The notes below the pieces were generated by a model. It was not told the DNA's origin. It did no database searches and saw only the letters and a program-made list of their open reading frames with translations. The translations under genes and the position numbers were made by a program. This document shows, piece after piece, positions 50,800 through 57,358 of a stretch of DNA of 64,000 nt; position 1 is the stretch's first letter; the number at the start of each line of letters is the position of its first letter. The stretch is from assembly GCF_014595955.1 (NCBI RefSeq), contig NZ_JABVCF010000003.1:372001-436000 (forward strand), given 5' to 3'. This stretch comes from Pseudaminobacter soli (ex Zhang et al. 2022) (lineage in GTDB: Bacteria; Pseudomonadota; Alphaproteobacteria; Rhizobiales; Rhizobiaceae).

Positions 50800-52136
50800 A
50801 TGGACTTGAGCGGCTTCTCGATACTGGGGCGCAGCAAGCCGACGCATCAATCCAAGCCCCAGTGGGCCAATAGAAGCATCTCGGCGTTCGACTCGGGAGA
50901 CGAGTTGGTACGCTTCTTCTTCTCTGAGTTCGAAGCTTGGCACCCTATTCTCAAGAGGCTCCGCCTCTCGCCAGATACGGTGATCCGGCTGGCAGCCAGG
51001 GTGAAGGATCACGGGACCGATTTCCAGAGCGAACTGCTCGCCTCCAACCTGGTCTCGGAAGAGGAACTGTTCCGGGCGATCGCCGAGGAGTTCCGCATAG
51101 CATTCATCGCCGAGCTTGACCCGGATCGGCTGGTCGTCAAGCCAGAGGACCGAGAGCTGCTTTTGCGCAGCCGCAGCAAGCACGTGCATGTCTGGATGCT
51201 GGGACGCGACGGCCGCACGCATCCTTTGATCGCTCCCGCAGGCATGAGCCTCGGCAGCTTGAAATCGATCCTGCAACGCAACGGCAGGCTTCTTCCTCTC
51301 CTTCGTCTCACAACCCCGCGAGTGCTGCGACAGGCCATATTGGCTCCATCATCCAAATCGCTGTCCGAGCACGCAAGAAATCGGCTGTATGAGCAGTTTC
51401 CAAGCTTATCAGCCAAGATCGTCGCGACGGCGCGTCAGGGCCTGATCCTCGGCCTGGTGATGGCCTCCATTCCTCTGGGTTTTGCTCTGGAGCCGTCGGC
51501 CACCCTCCTGGCCGTCCATATCTTTTCATCCCTGTTCTTCCTATCATGCGGCGCGCTTCGCTTCGCGGCAGCCGCAAGTTCTCCGGAGCCTACGCCGGCC
51601 AATCTCGAGCGGACGCCGGCCAACACCCTGCCTGTCTATTCGGTGCTGGTCGCGCTTCGCAACGAAGTGGACGTCATTCCCCAGTTGCTTGCAGCCCTGG
51701 AGCAGATCGTCTGGCCTCGCAGCAAGCTGGAGATCAAGCTGGTGTGCGAGGCCGACGACCACCTGACGCTTGACGCGATCGCAGAATTCGAACTGCCTCA
51801 CCACTTCGAGGTGGTGAAGGTTCCGCCGGGCCTACCCCGCACCAAACCGAAGGCCCTCAACTTCGCGCTGCAACTCATCAAGGGTGATTTCGTCGTCCTG
51901 TATGACGCCGAAGACCGCCCGCACCCGCTGCAACTGCTGGAAGCCTGGCGGCGCTTCGAGGAAGGGGGCGAGGATCTCGCCTGCCTGCAGGCGCCGCTGG
52001 AGATCACGAATGGTGCTTCCGGCGTCATTCCCCGGATGTTCGCCTTCGAATACTCGGCGCTGTTCTCCGGGCTGCTCCCCTGGCTGTCGGGTCGGCGGAT
52101 CATCATCCCGCTCGGAGGAACGTCCAACCATCTGAG
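50800..52136 (+). pseudogene. Family 2 glycosyltransferase, 5' part, cut by a transposon
   Basis: The first 445 codons of a 648-codon gene are intact up to the element; the frame then runs on into the element for a few codons to a TAG at 52147. Residues 1-190 resemble the N-terminal domain seen in T2SS/GspE-type and glycosyltransferase fusions. Two membrane helices follow (about 205-255). The GT2 catalytic domain starts near 280 with YSVLVALRNEVDVIPQ, and YDAEDRPHP gives the metal-binding acidic cluster. The rest of the active site (ED and Q-x-x-R-W) is in the 3' part at 56749. The product would be a truncated, probably inactive enzyme. It was presumably a processive or lipid-sugar-synthesising transferase. 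Confidence 0.9.
52129..52136. repeat. Left copy of 8-bp target-site duplication
   Basis: CATCTGAG ends exactly where the transposon begins and is repeated directly after the right end (56741-56748). Removing the element and one copy restores the reading frame of the glycosyltransferase. Eight bases is the duplication size known for IS1595-type elements. Confidence 0.93.
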
Positions 52137-52159
52137 CGGTATTATGTAGCAACCTCAAA
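52137..52159 (+). repeat. Left terminal inverted repeat
   Basis: The end begins CGGTATTATGTA and pairs with the right end at 56718-56740 at 20 of 23 positions; the mismatches are at positions 9, 13 and 17. The outer eight bases CGGTATTA are identical. Confidence 0.92.
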
Positions 52160-52174
52160 TGAAATGCGCTATGC

Positions 52175-52189
52175 CAACGATAAGCGTTG
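52175..52189. promoter_or_regulatory. Operator copy 1 (CAACG-N5-CGTTG)
   Basis: CAACGATAAGCGTTG lies 15 bases before the ATG at 52205 and abuts an extended -10-like TGATATATG. It is nested in a wider inverted repeat ATGCCAAC (52171)/GTTGGCAT (52199) that includes the ATG. Matching copies lie at 55238 and 55285, next to the XRE gene, so the XRE protein is the likely binder. The transcript may have almost no leader, because no ribosome site precedes the ATG. Confidence 0.6.
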
Positions 52190-52204
52190 ATATATGCTGT
52201 TGGC

Positions 52205-52642
52205 ATGACCGATGGGTATGACCTCACCATAGCCGGACTGCTTCGCAAGCGAGGCGAGATGCTGGCCAACCTCGCGGATCTCCGGGAGCAATTGGCCGTC
52301 GTCTCGAATGACGTAGAGGCCATAGAGCGCATTCTGGAGACGCTCGGCTACGATGGCGATCTGCCGACCAAGACCACGCGAGCGCCGCGCATCGTCCTCT
52401 TCTACAGGGGAGAGCTTCGCCAGTTCCTGCGGCAGTCCTTGGAGGAACACGGCCCGTCAACGTCACGTCAGCTTGCGGAGCGATTGGTTCACATGGAGGG
52501 AAAAGACGCTCGCGACCGGCGCTTGATGAATGATGTGGTCAAGCGAATGGGCAAGGCGCTTCGACAAATGCGGGAAGTTGGAATAGTTACCCGATCGCCG
52601 GGCAAGATAAAAGGTGAGTTTACCTGGGCTGTCCAGAAGTAA
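52205..52642 (+). CDS. Winged-helix-like passenger protein
   Basis: 145 residues from ATG 52205; an earlier in-frame TTG at 52187 overlaps the operator. The N-terminal half is a coiled coil (LLRKRGEMLANLADLREQL). The C-terminal half (from about residue 68: LRQFLRQSLEEHGPSTSRQL) looks like a winged helix and ends in a beta-hairpin (GIVTRSPGKIKGEFTW). It is 78 bases upstream of the methyltransferase-nuclease gene on the same strand and may regulate or assist it. I know no close family. Confidence 0.65.
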   Translation: MTDGYDLTIAGLLRKRGEMLANLADLREQLAVVSNDVEAIERILETLGYDGDLPTKTTRAPRIVLFYRGELRQFLRQSLEEHGPSTSRQLAERLVHMEGKDARDRRLMNDVVKRMGKALRQMREVGIVTRSPGKIKGEFTWAVQK

Positions 52643-52720
52643 ACAACTCACTAACACGCTGATTCTTCTTCATTAACTATCACGTCGTATTATTGCGATC
52701 GCGCGGCGGAGGCCACGGGG

Positions 52721-54271
52721 ATGAATAAGCTTTTCTTTGGCGATAATTTGGATGTGTTGCGGGAGCACATAAAGGACGAGAGCGTCGATCTCATCTATCT
52801 AGATCCCCCGTTCAATTCAAAGGCCAACTACGGCGTTATTTTCTCTGACAAATCAGGAGTAATGTCCGAGGCGCAGGCCGAGGCGTTCAAGGACACTTGG
52901 ACATGGGGGGAAACGTCAGCCCATGCCTACCAGGACTTGATCGGGATGCGAAGTGAACTGTCTGTCCTCATGGAGGCCTTCCGAAAATGGCTCGGGACAG
53001 GTGGAACGCTCGCCTATCTATCAATGATGGCCGTTCGACTGGTCGAGCTGAAGCGGGTTTTGAAGGAAACCGGCAGCATCTATCTACACTGCGACCCCAC
53101 CGCGAGCCACTATCTCAAGATAATTATGGACGCCATTTTTGGGCATCGGAATTTCCGAAATGAGGTCATCTGGGACTATTCGTTCAGGCTGATGGACCTT
53201 CCCCGATTTTTCAATCGTAAGCACGACGTCATACTCTTCTATGCTGCTAGTGATCGGTCGTTCTTCAATATGCCCAAAACAGAGTGGACGCGAGAAGACT
53301 TGATGCGCTCGCGAAAGCAGAAGATTCATGTCGATGATGAGGGCGTCGAGTGGATTTGGATGCCGGGAGGTAGAGGGAACTCAAAGAGTAGGCTGCGGCG
53401 TGTGGACGAAATAATCGCGGGCGGGAAGGCGGTATCGGATGTATGGCCGATCCCGATCATCTCCTCTTCGTCACGCGAGAGGGTGGGCTATCCAACACAG
53501 AAGCCCCTAGCGTTACTGGACCGGATTATCTCAGCTTCATCGAAAGAAGACGCAGTCGTCCTAGATCCTTTTTGTGGCTGCGGCACGACAATCGAAGCCT
53601 CTGAGCGCTTACGGCGAAACTGGCTTGGTATTGATATCACCCACTATGCCATCACCGTGATCCAGAATCGCCTGGAGAGACGCCGGCCGGACGCGAAGTT
53701 CTCAATCTATGGCCGTCCCACCGATTTAGCGGGCGCTATCGCACTGGCAGAACGCGATAAGTATCAGTTTCAATGGTGGGCAGCATGGAAGTTGGGCGCC
53801 CAAACCTACGAGTCAAAGAAGGGCGGCGACAAGGGGGTGGACGGCAACATCTATTTCGCGAATGGTCCGTATGGACTTGGTCGCATCATTATCTCTGTGA
53901 AGGGTGGGCATCATGTGAACCCATCCATGGTGCGAGATTTGGCTGGCACGGTTGAACGCGAGAATGCCGAGATGGGTGTTCTGGTCACCCTCAATGAGCC
54001 TACGCGGGGGATGATATCGGATGCCGCCAATTATGGTTTCGTTTCCAAGACGCCTCACGGTCGCCTGCCTCGCGTCCAGATCGTAACGGCGGCAGACCTG
54101 ATAGACGGTCGTCTGCCGAATTTCCCGCCCATACCAATTTCTCAGAGTGCTGCGCGTCCCCGAAAGCGAGACAAAGACCAATTGGAATTGATGCTGCCCT
54201 TCGCCGGATCGCAGTCATTGCGGACAGGGACCGGCGATATGATAGACCCACGCTTTCTGTCGTTCGCCTAG
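52721..54271 (+). CDS. DNA methyltransferase fused to an Mrr-like nuclease domain
   Basis: 516 residues. Motif IV DLIYLDPPFNS is near the start (DPPF at 28-31) and motif I VVLDPFCGCGTT is at about 279-290, with RVGYPTQKP just before. This order defines a beta-class amino methyltransferase, probably adenine N6. The central part (140-250) would recognise the target. Residues 350-460 add a PD-(D/E)xK-like domain: KKGGDKGVDGNIYF (D374) and IISVKGG (K394), then DLAGTVERENAEMGVLVT as in Mrr. Serine stands where most have E or Q before x-K, so cutting ability is uncertain. GGAGGCC precedes the ATG. One protein may both methylate and cut. The convergent transposase stop overlaps its stop. Confidence 0.88.
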   Translation: MNKLFFGDNLDVLREHIKDESVDLIYLDPPFNSKANYGVIFSDKSGVMSEAQAEAFKDTWTWGETSAHAYQDLIGMRSELSVLMEAFRKWLGTGGTLAYLSMMAVRLVELKRVLKETGSIYLHCDPTASHYLKIIMDAIFGHRNFRNEVIWDYSFRLMDLPRFFNRKHDVILFYAASDRSFFNMPKTEWTREDLMRSRKQKIHVDDEGVEWIWMPGGRGNSKSRLRRVDEIIAGGKAVSDVWPIPIISSSSRERVGYPTQKPLALLDRIISASSKEDAVVLDPFCGCGTTIEASERLRRNWLGIDITHYAITVIQNRLERRRPDAKFSIYGRPTDLAGAIALAERDKYQFQWWAAWKLGAQTYESKKGGDKGVDGNIYFANGPYGLGRIIISVKGGHHVNPSMVRDLAGTVERENAEMGVLVTLNEPTRGMISDAANYGFVSKTPHGRLPRVQIVTAADLIDGRLPNFPPIPISQSAARPRKRDKDQLELMLPFAGSQSLRTGTGDMIDPRFLSFA

Positions 54272-55227
54272 TTGCTCCGCTGCCAGTATCCAGCCCAAAC
54301 CCGGCTCACAGGATGATTGAGCGCCCCACCAAGGATCGCGAAGGCGTTTGCACCGTTTGAGTGGCGGCGATGATCCTCCAGCCAAGCGGCGTGGTTGGCA
54401 TACTGGTAAAGGTACTGCGGCGAAACGTGATGGTGCTGACCGGAGACCATCCGGCGAAGGCGAGAAAAGAAGCTTTCGACGCCGTTGGTATGGACGCCGT
54501 CCAGATAGCTGTACGCCTCGCTGTGATTGATGCGGAAGGCTACTAAACTGTCATGAAGCGCATCCCAGTGGCTCGCCTCGTCGGCATAGAAGGTTGACCC
54601 CTTACGAGCCTTCGCTGCGATGGACAGACCGTCAGCTTCGCTGGTTACGACGTGGGTATAGGTACGCCCCTGACGCTCACGTAGCGCGACTACAACCCGG
54701 CGCTGGCCAGTCTGATGGACCGCCTTGCGGCGGTCGATGCGCTTCTCTTTGAAGTTGGCCGGTCGGATATGGCCACCAAAATATGCGCCGTCTATTTCGA
54801 TCTCACCGCCCGGAGTAGCGTCGGCAAGTTCGGCAGCAAGGGCCTCACGCAGCTTGTGCGATAGTACGAAGGCCGTCTTGTACTGGCAGTCGATATCACG
54901 TGACAATTGGAGGGCGGAAAGGCCCTTGGCAGCATTCACGAAGATGCAGATGGCGGCCAGGAGGTCCACATAAGCCATCTTACGGGACGCGAATATCGTT
55001 CCAGACGTAACGCTAAACTGCTTGTTGCACGCGATGCAACGGAAGGTCGGACGGTCCTTGATGGGCTTGCTGTCCAGGCAGCCGCAAGCGGGGCAAACTG
55101 GCTGGCCGTGAGTATCAGCCCACCGCATCCGCTTGAACGTCTCGTATGCCGACTGTTCGCCGCCCCTGTATATGTCGCGGAGGCTAAGGGTTCGAGCTTC
55201 GGCGCTTAGGAGGAAATGTTGAGCCAC
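54268..55227 (-). CDS. IS1595-family transposase
   Basis: 319 residues from a GTG at 55227 with GAGG upstream. An N-terminal zinc ribbon has CPAC (45-48) and CIAC (64-67). The catalytic core (ISXO2-like DDE domain) shows D146 in EIEIDGAYFGG, D216 in TFYADEASHWD, and HTNGVESFFSRLRR around N248 and E251 for the third position. The length and domain order fit the family. The promoter at 55259-55287 and operator at 55238-55252 suggest repression by the XRE protein. The gene looks intact, so the element may still move. Confidence 0.95.
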   Translation of the reverse strand: MAQHFLLSAEARTLSLRDIYRGGEQSAYETFKRMRWADTHGQPVCPACGCLDSKPIKDRPTFRCIACNKQFSVTSGTIFASRKMAYVDLLAAICIFVNAAKGLSALQLSRDIDCQYKTAFVLSHKLREALAAELADATPGGEIEIDGAYFGGHIRPANFKEKRIDRRKAVHQTGQRRVVVALRERQGRTYTHVVTSEADGLSIAAKARKGSTFYADEASHWDALHDSLVAFRINHSEAYSYLDGVHTNGVESFFSRLRRMVSGQHHHVSPQYLYQYANHAAWLEDHRRHSNGANAFAILGGALNHPVSRVWAGYWQRSN

Positions 55228-55237
55228 TGTCAGACCT

Positions 55238-55252
55238 CAACGAAAATCGTTG
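55238..55252. promoter_or_regulatory. Operator copy 2 (CAACG-N5-CGTTG)
   Basis: CAACGAAAATCGTTG, with one further matching pair outside (T/A), lies 11 bases before the transposase GTG and at the expected transcription start of that gene. Binding here would block transposase transcription and cover its ribosome site. Confidence 0.65.
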
Positions 55253-55258
55253 ATGTAA

Positions 55259-55287
55259 GTGATATTGGTGATTATCACTCATGTCAA
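55259..55287 (-). promoter_or_regulatory. Transposase promoter
   Basis: On the minus strand TTGACA (plus 55282-55287) is followed after 17 bases by TATCAC (plus 55259-55264). The -35 is perfect. Transcription would begin near 55252, inside operator copy 2. Confidence 0.6.
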
Positions 55288-55299
55288 CTAAAATCGTTG
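55285..55299. promoter_or_regulatory. Operator copy 3 (CAACT-N5-CGTTG variant)
   Basis: CAACTAAAATCGTTG differs from copy 2 by one base. It overlaps the -35 of the transposase promoter and lies four bases before the -35 of the XRE promoter, so one bound protein could act on both. A larger repeat ATGTCAA (55281)/TTGACAT (55303) encloses it. Confidence 0.55.
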
Positions 55300-55302
55300 G
55301 CC

Positions 55303-55331
55303 TTGACATAAAGCGGTTGAATCCTTAGAAA
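55303..55331 (+). promoter_or_regulatory. Promoter of the XRE gene
   Basis: TTGACA at 55303-55308, a 17-base spacer, and TAGAAA at 55326-55331. The start of transcription would coincide with the ATG at 55338, so the mRNA may be leaderless. No good ribosome site is present, which agrees with that. Confidence 0.55.
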
Positions 55332-55337
55332 TGTCGT

Positions 55338-55580
55338 ATGTTGACACCGGAACAGAGTCGGGCGGCGCGCGGGTGGCTGGACTGGTCGCAAGACGAACTT
55401 GCCGGCCGAGCCAAGGTATCGCTTTCGACTATCCGAGACTTTGAGAAGGGACGGCGGACGCCAATCGCGAACAACCTGGACGCAATCGTGCGAGCCTTGG
55501 AGTCCGCTGGCGTCGAACTTTTGTTCTCGGATGAGGGCAAGGCAAAGGGTGTTGCCGTTTCCAGCAACACCCCCGCATAG
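55338..55580 (+). CDS. XRE-family regulator of the transposon
   Basis: 80 residues. A single helix-turn-helix of the Cro/CI kind is plain: EQSRAARGWLDWSQDELAGR followed by VSLSTIRDFEKGRRTPIANN, then an amphipathic end (LDAIVRALESAGVELLF). It diverges from the transposase across 110 bases holding two operators and two promoters. By family role it is probably the repressor of the transposase and possibly of the 52205 operon, where a third operator lies. It may also keep the restriction-modification protein at safe levels, like C proteins do. Confidence 0.9.
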   Translation: MLTPEQSRAARGWLDWSQDELAGRAKVSLSTIRDFEKGRRTPIANNLDAIVRALESAGVELLFSDEGKAKGVAVSSNTPA

Positions 55581-55590
55581 GCGACTAGGC

Positions 55591-55788
55591 TTAGATGTCG
55601 TCCCCTGGAGGAGGCAGCGGGACGGCAGACACAAAGCGGCGACCGTGGATGATGTGGTTTACGGTGCCGACGTTGAGATTGAAGGCAATGGCAGCCCTCG
55701 TCTGCGACCAGCCGTTAACCACCACGGCCCAAAGGACGTGACAAGCTTTGAGATGGTCGCAAGGATGGTAGTCGAAGTTTGTGCGCAT
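55591..55788 (-). CDS. Small HTH-like passenger protein
   Basis: 65 residues from ATG 55788, with AGGA nine bases upstream; an earlier in-frame ATG at 55875 is less likely. KACHVLWAVVVNGWSQTRAAIAF and LNVGTVNHIIHGRRF look like a short helix-turn-helix. It is convergent with the XRE gene (stops ten bases apart). Similar short proteins occur in phages and mobile elements. Function unknown. Confidence 0.55.
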   Translation of the reverse strand: MRTNFDYHPCDHLKACHVLWAVVVNGWSQTRAAIAFNLNVGTVNHIIHGRRFVSAVPLPPPGDDI

Positions 55789-56000
55789 GATGGGGTTCCT
55801 ATTTTGCGCGATTTGGGAGCCCCGGCCTTGAAAACAGGCCAAAAAGATGCGACTTTCAGAGTGCGTAGTATGCATCTGAGCCGTTCCTGACCGGGGCAGT
55901 TTGGATCATGCGAACCGGGCCAAGTGTTCCACCACCTGACCCGGCCCGATTAGACCGCTAATAACGGTCCATGGTTTTTAACCATGAAGTCCTCCGTGTT

Positions 56001-56594
56001 CTAGCGCTCGTGCTGCGCGGGGTTGGAATGGTTCTCAGGCGGGTACGAGCCGCCAGTCGAACCGGGTTTAGAGCCGTCCGTCGCGAAAGCGTCGGGCGGC
56101 TCATCTCTTATGCCCGCAATCGCCATCTGGTATCGCGCGCTCTTGTCGCGCGCCTCTGCGATGTGCGGCGATCCTTTCGGATACCATTTGCCGTCGTAGT
56201 TCACGACGGCGTCCTCTTGGGTGTTAAGCTGCCAAAGCGTGCCTCGCACCGAATTGTGCTTGAAGCCCGTCATCTCGATTATCTGACGGCGCGTAAGGCC
56301 ACGCGGGTTATCCTGAATGAGCTTTAGCACCGCAGGCTTGACCGTCCCAGGTGCGGCTCTATCAACCTCTACTGACCCGTTATCGGTTGCCACCTCCGCG
56401 TTGCGAACGTCAGTACTTGATGGCGTAAAAGAGGCCGAGACGGGCTCATCCGAAGAAAGAACAGCGTTAAGTTTGGTGAGAAGCTCCGCCCTAGCGGACT
56501 CTTTCCCTGCCGCGAAACCAGCCTCATACGCGTCATCAAGAGCCAGCCGCATCATCGCAGCCATGTCGCTATTCAGCTGGTCGAGCTTGTCCAT
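56001..56594 (-). CDS. wHTH-like passenger protein
   Basis: 197 residues with GAGGG before the ATG. The N-terminus is a helical, acidic stretch (MAAMMRLALDDAYEAGFAAG), the middle is disordered, and a winged-helix-like region follows at about residues 85-135 (VLKLIQDNPRGLTRRQIIEM, then HNSVRGTLWQLN). The C-terminus is Pro/Ser-rich. It is the outermost gene at the right end of the element and may regulate transposition or the host response. No known family is recognised. Confidence 0.6.
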   Translation of the reverse strand: MDKLDQLNSDMAAMMRLALDDAYEAGFAAGKESARAELLTKLNAVLSSDEPVSASFTPSSTDVRNAEVATDNGSVEVDRAAPGTVKPAVLKLIQDNPRGLTRRQIIEMTGFKHNSVRGTLWQLNTQEDAVVNYDGKWYPKGSPHIAEARDKSARYQMAIAGIRDEPPDAFATDGSKPGSTGGSYPPENHSNPAQHER

Positions 56595-56703
56595 TGGAGC
56601 GCCCTCATGATTCTATCAAGGTATATAGCAGCGGGCGTCCATTTCGACAATCATAACGTGTGTGAATAACGCGAATATCTGTTGCTTACGTGCGTAATGC
56701 ACC

Positions 56704-56715
56704 CGTTACGTAACG
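56704..56715. repeat. 12-bp palindrome near the right end of the element
   Basis: CGTTACGTAACG is perfectly symmetrical and stands two bases inside the 23-bp inverted repeat. No partner is found at the left end, so it could be a host-factor or transposase subsite special to the right end. Confidence 0.4.
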
Positions 56716-56717
56716 CT

Positions 56718-56740
56718 TTTGAGTTTGATACCTAATACCG
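56718..56740 (-). repeat. Right terminal inverted repeat
   Basis: Read on the minus strand it begins CGGTATTAGGTA and mirrors the left end at 20 of 23 positions. Confidence 0.92.
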
Positions 56741-56748
56741 CATCTGAG
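56741..56748. repeat. Right copy of 8-bp target-site duplication
   Basis: CATCTGAG, identical to 52129-52136, sits directly after the right end of the element and continues in the glycosyltransferase frame. Confidence 0.93.
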
Positions 56749-57358
56749 GACGTCGGTCCTTGAGGAAGTCGGGGGCTGGGACCCCTACAATGTCACGGAG
56801 GATGCCGACCTCGGCCTCCGCCTCACGAGATTCGGCTACAGGACTGCCACCATCACGCTGCCGACGTTCGAGGATGCACCCGAGACCCTGTCGGACTGGC
56901 TGCCGCAGAGGACCCGATGGCTGAAAGGTTGGATGCAGACCTGGCTCGTCCACATGCGCCATCCTGTCCAACTCGTGCGCGAGATCGGTCCACGTTCGTT
57001 CGTGATCGCACAGATCCTCTCCGCAGGATTCGTGGTATCGGCGATGCTGCATCCGATCCTGCTACTCGCCGGAATCTACCTCATGCTGGAGATGGCGTTC
57101 ACAACCCCGGTCAGCGGCTGGAGCGTCGTGCTCCTTACGATCGACATGCTCAACCTCGTCTGCGGCTACACGTCTTTCCTGGCACTGGGCTGGCAGACCC
57201 TGCCGAAAGCGCAGCGGCGAGGTTTTTGGCGGATCGTGCTTTTCACGCCGCCATACTGGTTCCTGATGTCGGCGGCAGCCTGGCGCTCGCTGTTCCAGAT
57301 CTATCGCCGTCCCCACCATTGGGAGAAGACGCGGCATTTCCGAACGAAGGTGCAGTAG
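56749..57358 (+). pseudogene. Family 2 glycosyltransferase, 3' part, cut by a transposon
   Basis: The frame resumes as RTSVLEEVGGWDPYN and then TEDADLGLRL, giving the catalytic-base motif. QRTRWLKG supplies the Q-x-x-R-W motif of processive family-2 enzymes. Three or four hydrophobic helices follow (about 56990-57300) to a TAG at 57356-57358. The first base completes the codon cut by the element, so the gene is 1947 bases without it. An internal ATG at 56933 could start a 141-residue membrane fragment, but that would lack both motifs. Confidence 0.9.

Follow-up and report, generated by a model that had tools for sequence, protein, structure and literature searches.

Insertion sequences of the IS1595 family usually make 8-bp target duplications and carry a single transposase gene whose product has a zinc-finger domain, according to the portion of the family description cited here (PMC8101967). 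In the cited part of its report, the family member ISApl4 is said to insert at many varied sites, preferably A/T-rich ones (PMC12561309). Tn7-like elements, as far as the cited section covers them, encode their own DNA-binding selector, which directs insertion to conserved chromosomal genes, and have exchanged such partners; comM is among their attachment sites and is inactivated by Tn6022 (PMC11406308). Here we describe an element in a stretch of 64,000 nucleotides ("the window") from Pseudaminobacter soli (ex Zhang et al. 2022) (assembly GCF_014595955.1, contig NZ_JABVCF010000003.1, positions 372,001 to 436,000). The window element lies at 52137-56740 of this stretch and splits a family-2 glycosyltransferase (GT2) gene. 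Next to an IS1595-type transposase it encodes a small protein, P0002 (52205-52642), which we call c1 together with its homologues in related elements. Elements of this group recur at exact sites, every delimited one carries c1, and their targets agree with c1 and not with the transposase. We consider it likely that these IS1595-type transposons are steered to exact sites by c1, an element-borne and interchangeable target selector.

Recurrent target sites and their predictors

Relatives of the window element were fetched by the transposase alone, as the best 80 of 135 confirmed loci, mostly alphaproteobacterial by record title. With the window element and a further element in genome G003, which was found via its GT2 gene, they make 82 loci (G and L numbers denote genomes and loci). 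In an end scan that required inverted ends and a perfect 8-bp pair, 59 of the 82 passed, including 57 of the 80, and eight more elements were delimited by hand from their terminal repeats. Of the remaining loci, 11 were used with one end and four were unused. All 67 delimited elements contain the transposase, and all 67 contain a c1 homologue (profile search, E 1e-5), the weakest matches being L056 (25.8 bits) and L050 (32.5 bits); the c1 of L057 is split.

Loci were sorted into target classes by how similar their half-sites are when compared in register, and element genes were not used; the intergenic-repeat class is defined at the DNA level only. Such classes take in 45 of the 78 loci for which one or both ends were set. 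Sixteen loci (14 of the 80, the window and G003), which come from many genera and carry differing cargo, are at the GGTSN-HFR codons of GT2 (class GT2a). Other larger classes are an intergenic repeat (12 loci) and an HNH-like gene (7 loci), whose name rests on motif reading, Pfam having matched nothing above cut-off. Classes of two loci each are radC, a Mg-chelatase gene that we take to be comM, the PHxWEKT and YPRxKLxI sites of GT2, and the L005/L006 site; the radC and Mg-chelatase targets are backed by Pfam. GT2 is struck at three different codons. The GT2a elements with both ends set (n = 14: 12 of the 80, the window and G003) lie parallel to the gene in 5 cases and antiparallel in 9. Across 24 bases on the left side of the GT2a site, the least conserved are the third codon positions, as expected if the target is kept through its protein. 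The 8-bp sequence alone was rejected as the target determinant because the duplications are too varied. The intergenic repeat, roughly CCTCCGGCGGG and then an A/T-rich 8-mer, serves repeatedly as an insertion site in Rhodobacterales-type records, for example in L044, L053, L054, L061 and L071.

We compared how well the genes of an element foretell its target. Among labelled elements with a partner, the nearest neighbour shared the target in 35/41 cases by c1, 15/41 by the transposase and 11/40 by a small helix-turn-helix (HTH) protein, scores reached by 0, 4 and 96 of 5000 label shuffles, respectively. In the paired comparison (n = 41), both predictors were right 15 times, c1 only 20 times, the transposase only 0 times and neither 6 times. 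All six c1 misses led to unlabelled elements, none to another class. When both partners were labelled, c1 pairs at least 45% identical shared the target in 94/94 cases, with transposases that were 57.5-95.9% identical, and c1 pairs at least 40% identical did so in 128/130. Labelled transposase pairs at least 85% identical shared it in 18/44. Restricted to the repeat, HNH and comM classes, c1 was right in 19/19 and the transposase in 8/19. Neither part of c1 was a clear winner (27/34 for the first 62 residues, 24/33 for the remainder).

Maximum-likelihood trees of 57 labelled elements, built by a quick method with approximate likelihood-ratio (SH-aLRT) support only, required 8 label changes on c1, the minimum for nine classes, versus 23 on the transposase; shuffled labels gave means of 35.5 and 35.4 changes, respectively. 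This set omits L057, with its split c1, and L221 and L222, which are the same as L014 and L074. The L036/L197 site was named the ninth class by hand, and L171 and L178 are near copies with transposases 94% identical. On the c1 tree the comM class is split by a second comM site nested inside it.

Additional elements were held out from this comparison. Searches with c1 that covered the order (397 genomes) and the class (385 genomes) gave 58 fetched regions; removal of 2 without c1 (by script), 13 without a transposase nearby and 2 duplicates left 41 new elements, which were found through c1 and hence give no test of its frequency. At recurrent sites (n = 16), the nearest c1 of the old set named the class in 13/16 and the nearest transposase in 2/16, counted by rows. 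In genome G398 (L171, G398:C1:4074060-4090485) one GT2 gene is interrupted twice, at the GGTSN-HFR and YPRxKLxI sites, and next to each insertion is a c1 most closely related to c1 proteins of the fitting class (GT2a at 62-64% and GT2c at 37% identity). This double insertion fits the proposed docking of c1, since the c1 at each site matches its class.

The element of the window and its relatives

The features of the locus are as follows.

50800-52136, plus strand: GT2 gene, 5' part up to the insertion (Pfam Glycos_transf_2, 3.7e-08)
52129-52136: target duplication CATCTGAG, left copy, 8 bp (sequence and end scan)
52137-52156: left terminal inverted repeat (17/20 versus the right end)
52205-52642, plus strand: proposed target selector c1 (P0002 family), predicted long helix and winged helix; alternative start TTG at 52187
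52721-54271, plus strand: cargo, N6/N4 DNA methyltransferase with C-terminal Mrr_cat domain (Pfam 1.1e-44 and 1.5e-07; PADLOC MTase_II 1.9e-59)
54268-55227, minus strand: IS1595-family transposase (Pfam DDE_Tnp_IS1595 1.6e-35, Zn_ribbon_IS1595 1e-10; NCBIfam NF033547 142.4 bits, cut-off 75)
55338-55580, plus strand: small HTH protein adjoining and divergent from the transposase (HTH_3 1.8e-08; gene cluster c10)
55591-55875, minus strand: small open reading frame (ORF), possible gene, with no Pfam or NCBIfam family above cut-off
56001-56594, minus strand: ORF in the cargo slot with weak helix-turn-helix similarity (DUF3489 0.0045, HTH_24 0.067, both below cut-off)
56721-56740: right terminal inverted repeat (end scan)
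56741-56748: target duplication CATCTGAG, right copy, 8 bp (sequence and end scan)
56749-57358, plus strand: GT2 gene, 3' part, in frame with the 5' part (Pfam Glyco_trans_2_3, 2.8e-15)

A first-pass annotation of this DNA had read the locus as an IS1595-type transposon with cargo, flanked by a target duplication and splitting a GT2 gene. These points hold. The transposase domains are clear in Pfam (122.8 bits against a cut-off of 27, and 41.8 against 25.4 for the zinc ribbon) and in NCBIfam, the duplication is perfect on both flanks, and the methyltransferase with its Mrr_cat domain is present as cargo. The two gene parts (1337 and 610 bases) sum to 1947 bases, or 648 residues and a stop in one frame. 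The inverted ends are real as well, matching at 17/20 when counted from base 52137, a score above chance given that the runner-up pair in the same scan reached 12/20; the annotation's figure of 20/23 includes one base of the duplication. What it overlooked is the recurrent choice of this codon. With 14 of the 80 relatives at the same codon, in many genera, what matters about the locus is site selection rather than the inactivation of a single envelope enzyme.

The undisturbed gene is widespread among relatives. GT2 homologues run contiguously across the insertion point in G001, G002 and G011, and the site is uninterrupted in 8/8 relatives inspected at the DNA level, as the annotation had expected of an empty site. 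Among 40 relatives searched besides the own genome, 34 gave a match and 31 of these have one open GT2 frame of at least 586 codons; the exceptions are G003 (broken), G015 (contig edge) and G032 (internal stops). In its own genome the GT2 5' part matches only the broken gene itself, and the window transposase is a single copy, the three other matches being only 32-34% identical. A recent insertion is plausible. The annotation had held that a relative with the same two gene fragments would speak against this, and such a relative does occur, but as a separate insertion of another element. In G003, of the same genus, GT2 is broken at the identical codon, and its N-terminal part is only 60% identical to that of the window. 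The intruder has its own duplication, CATTTTCG, and terminal bases matching 20/20. Its transposase is 58% identical to that of the window element, it has no match to the methyltransferase, and its P0002 homologue is 82% identical. The different element and the different duplication rule out common ancestry of the two insertions.

Three of the six ORFs of the window element lack a Pfam or NCBIfam match above cut-off, and those searches gave no function for 55591-55875 and 56001-56594. The Mrr_cat-like domain of the methyltransferase is also matched by a Pfam family of "inactive" restriction endonucleases, which makes nuclease activity of the 52721-54271 product uncertain. A second, weak c1 match (36 bits) lies elsewhere in the same genome (L216, G000:C15:32022-32426), in a 16-kb stretch with no transposase of the group.

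Across the group, a small HTH-type protein is found in 66/67 elements (clusters c2 and c10), and the one c2 member scanned is a DUF6471 protein. The window, G003 and L080 elements carry an HTH protein (55338-55580 in the window) where most others have the DUF6471-type cluster; a PADLOC "control protein" match of 55338-55580 may mislead, since this position is usually held by that cluster. At least one other ORF of at least 90 residues occurs in 65/67 elements, in 90 clusters of mechanically called ORFs. Fifteen different cargo representatives were scanned. They include a type IIG restriction enzyme, RhuM, SocA/Panacea, NYN and IrrE-type peptidase proteins, Clp-like and SDH-type proteases and a DUF7931 protein, and the remaining ones had no convincing match. 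These contents hint at defence and toxin-antitoxin modules. The window (56001-56594), L105 (178-residue ORF) and L080 (176-residue ORF) elements encode one more small protein, located towards what in the window element is the end away from c1; it could be a second regulator or selector. In a search of 72,556 plasmid records, P0002 matched 1 and the transposase 18 (at E 1e-40), so little plasmid carriage was seen.

Proposed role of c1 and rival explanations

Neither Pfam nor NCBIfam nor PADLOC places P0002 in a family above cut-off, and any Pfam family that matched among 58 aligned c1 members did so in three at most, and weakly. A profile search against solved structures gave a best E of 0.028. 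An AlphaFold2 model of P0002 (mean predicted local distance difference test score 89.5, predicted template modelling score 0.64) shows one 44-residue helix and a winged helix. Winged helices (MarR, Fur, RosR and others) make up most of the top Foldseek matches, of which the best has E 0.009 and none falls below 0.001. The predicted helix and winged helix, with these matches, fit a DNA-binding adaptor, and c1 is probably a DNA-binding protein by this model. Its likeness to MarR, Fur and RosR lies in the predicted fold of the C-terminal domain; those proteins control transcription, whereas c1 would serve targeting.

We infer DNA binding by c1, contact between c1 and the transposase, and a direction of cause that runs from c1 to the site. 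An ordinary DDE transposase would move the element. The c1 protein would dock on a short, conserved piece of host chromosomal DNA and recruit or activate the transposase there, which would then insert the element with an 8-bp duplication. The c1 type of the window would go with the codons for GGTSN-HFR of the conserved GT2 gene. Recombination of c1 types among transposases would change the address while the transposase stays.

Several observations weigh against this proposal. Of the 41 hold-out elements, 25 were first placed in no class, and one of these, L166, was later found at the GT2 codon. Three hold-out comM elements were missed, their nearest c1 being of the type of the second comM site (ComM2). 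A GT2a-type c1, defined by an identity of 45% or more to some GT2a member, lies at the GT2 codon in seven hold-out loci (L166, L169, L170, L173, L174, L180 and L111) and off it in eight (L167, L172, L175, L176, L177, L179, L181 and L219), of which L172, L177, L181 and L219 have no transposase nearby and L175 has a transposase fragment. Likewise, RadC-type c1 is off-site in L010 and L023, ComM2-type in L191, L200, L206 and L220, and ComM-type in L205. The type of c1 thus gives no guarantee of the site. In addition, L037, L038, L043, L047, L067 and L069 share c1 at 75-92% identity, and no common site was found for them; this group possibly reflects a diverged repeat or a less specific selector. 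In a search of the 397 genomes with RadC-type c1, 27 had a match, of which only one was full-length and strong, that in the source genome of L007.

All five off-site genomes inspected (G193, G141, G369, G401 and G350) have an uninterrupted GT2 site; it reads GGTSTHFR in G141, and its 8-mer is CATTTTAA in G193. In these five, loss of the site as the cause of the off-site copies is therefore unsupported. Scored against a GT2a site profile (19 rows, including the duplicate L221 and the doubtful right halves of L016 and L020), the off-site insertions L167, L176 and L179 were negative, from -21 to -54, on a scale without a random baseline. By analogy, such copies might stem from secondary sites or from a second pathway of lower specificity; Tn7 has a pathway that is not sequence-specific, according to the cited section (PMC11406308).

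The agreement of target with c1 could also arise if the transposase itself preferred certain sites and c1 tracked it by linkage. The transposase tree is indeed less scattered than shuffles (23 versus 35.4 changes), only 4/5000 shuffles equalled the transposase score, and labelled transposase pairs at least 90% identical share the target in 5/8. However, at 85% identity and above they mostly differ in target whereas c1 pairs at 45% and above never did, and no labelled element was right by transposase and wrong by c1. ISApl4, another IS1595-family element, has merely a loose A/T-rich preference in the cited part of its report (PMC12561309). We regard this explanation as quite unlikely. An unlikely alternative of another kind is that recombination swaps the end genes of elements that share a site, whereby the shared site would produce the likeness of c1 and not the reverse. 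In 59/67 elements less than 150 bp separate the start of c1 from an element end, so exchange driven by flanking homology is conceivable. Against it, c1 identity between GT2a elements in opposite orientation reaches 81% (L008/L009, transposases 79% identical), although in such pairs c1 is turned towards opposite halves of the gene. Three elements, L080, L017 and L060, have c1 on the same strand as the transposase and elsewhere in the element, and it still fits the target class. The hosts span several families, and the off-site occurrence of the same c1 types is not predicted by site-driven homogenisation.

Random insertion followed by selection for GT2 loss, for example of a phage receptor, might mimic targeting, and the three struck codons of GT2 agree with this. 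The insertions nevertheless fall at the same base and are not spread across the gene, an intergenic repeat is among the recurrent sites, and selection leaves the agreement with c1 unexplained, which makes this account highly improbable. The view of the first-pass annotation, an ordinary IS1595 transposon that landed in GT2 by chance, suits the clean duplication and the single copy in the genome, but the 14/80 relatives at the same codon leave it with hardly any credibility. Steering by c1 remains our preferred explanation.

Relation to IS1595 and Tn7-like elements

The window element shares with the IS1595 family the zinc ribbon, the DDE_Tnp_IS1595 domain, terminal inverted repeats and the 8-bp duplication. 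Some members of the family carry passenger genes. In contrast to the single transposase gene in the cited family description (PMC8101967), c1 is constant here, and the small HTH protein and other ORFs are nearly so at the counts given above. Unlike the varied sites of ISApl4 in the part of the report cited (PMC12561309), the insertions of this group recur at exact sites. The window element is an IS1595-type transposon variant and not a plain insertion sequence, because a constant second gene, c1, stands beside the IS1595 transposase and ends.

The group works like Tn7-like elements in that the choice of site tracks an element-encoded accessory protein, a likeness seen here by comparison only and with off-site exceptions. 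A TniQ domain was not matched in P0002 or the 57 relatives aligned with it. The transposase is of the IS1595 type and not TnsAB, and no TnsC ATPase was found among the six ORFs of the window element or the widely shared gene clusters, the cargo ORFs being only partly scanned. The nearly universal genes of the group are only those for the transposase, c1 and the small HTH protein, and the orientation of its insertions is not fixed. The window element appears to work like a Tn7-type targeted element, with c1 in the role of TnsD, without being one. We lean towards viewing these elements as a class of transposons made site-selective by a tiny winged-helix plug-in that directs a plain DDE transposase without an ATPase matchmaker, and in which swapping of this adaptor has given about nine natural address types.

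No report of target selectors of IS1595-family elements was found in the open-licence literature searched. Site choice by a dedicated selector is already known from Tn7-like elements, but there it takes several proteins. If our proposal is true, the same selector logic in an IS1595-type element with one transposase would show how simply targeting can evolve, and it would account for one GT2 gene, comM and radC being broken at the same bases in different bacteria. The group would also offer natural selector-target pairs for studying transposase recruitment, and a minimal two-protein, re-addressable insertion machine.

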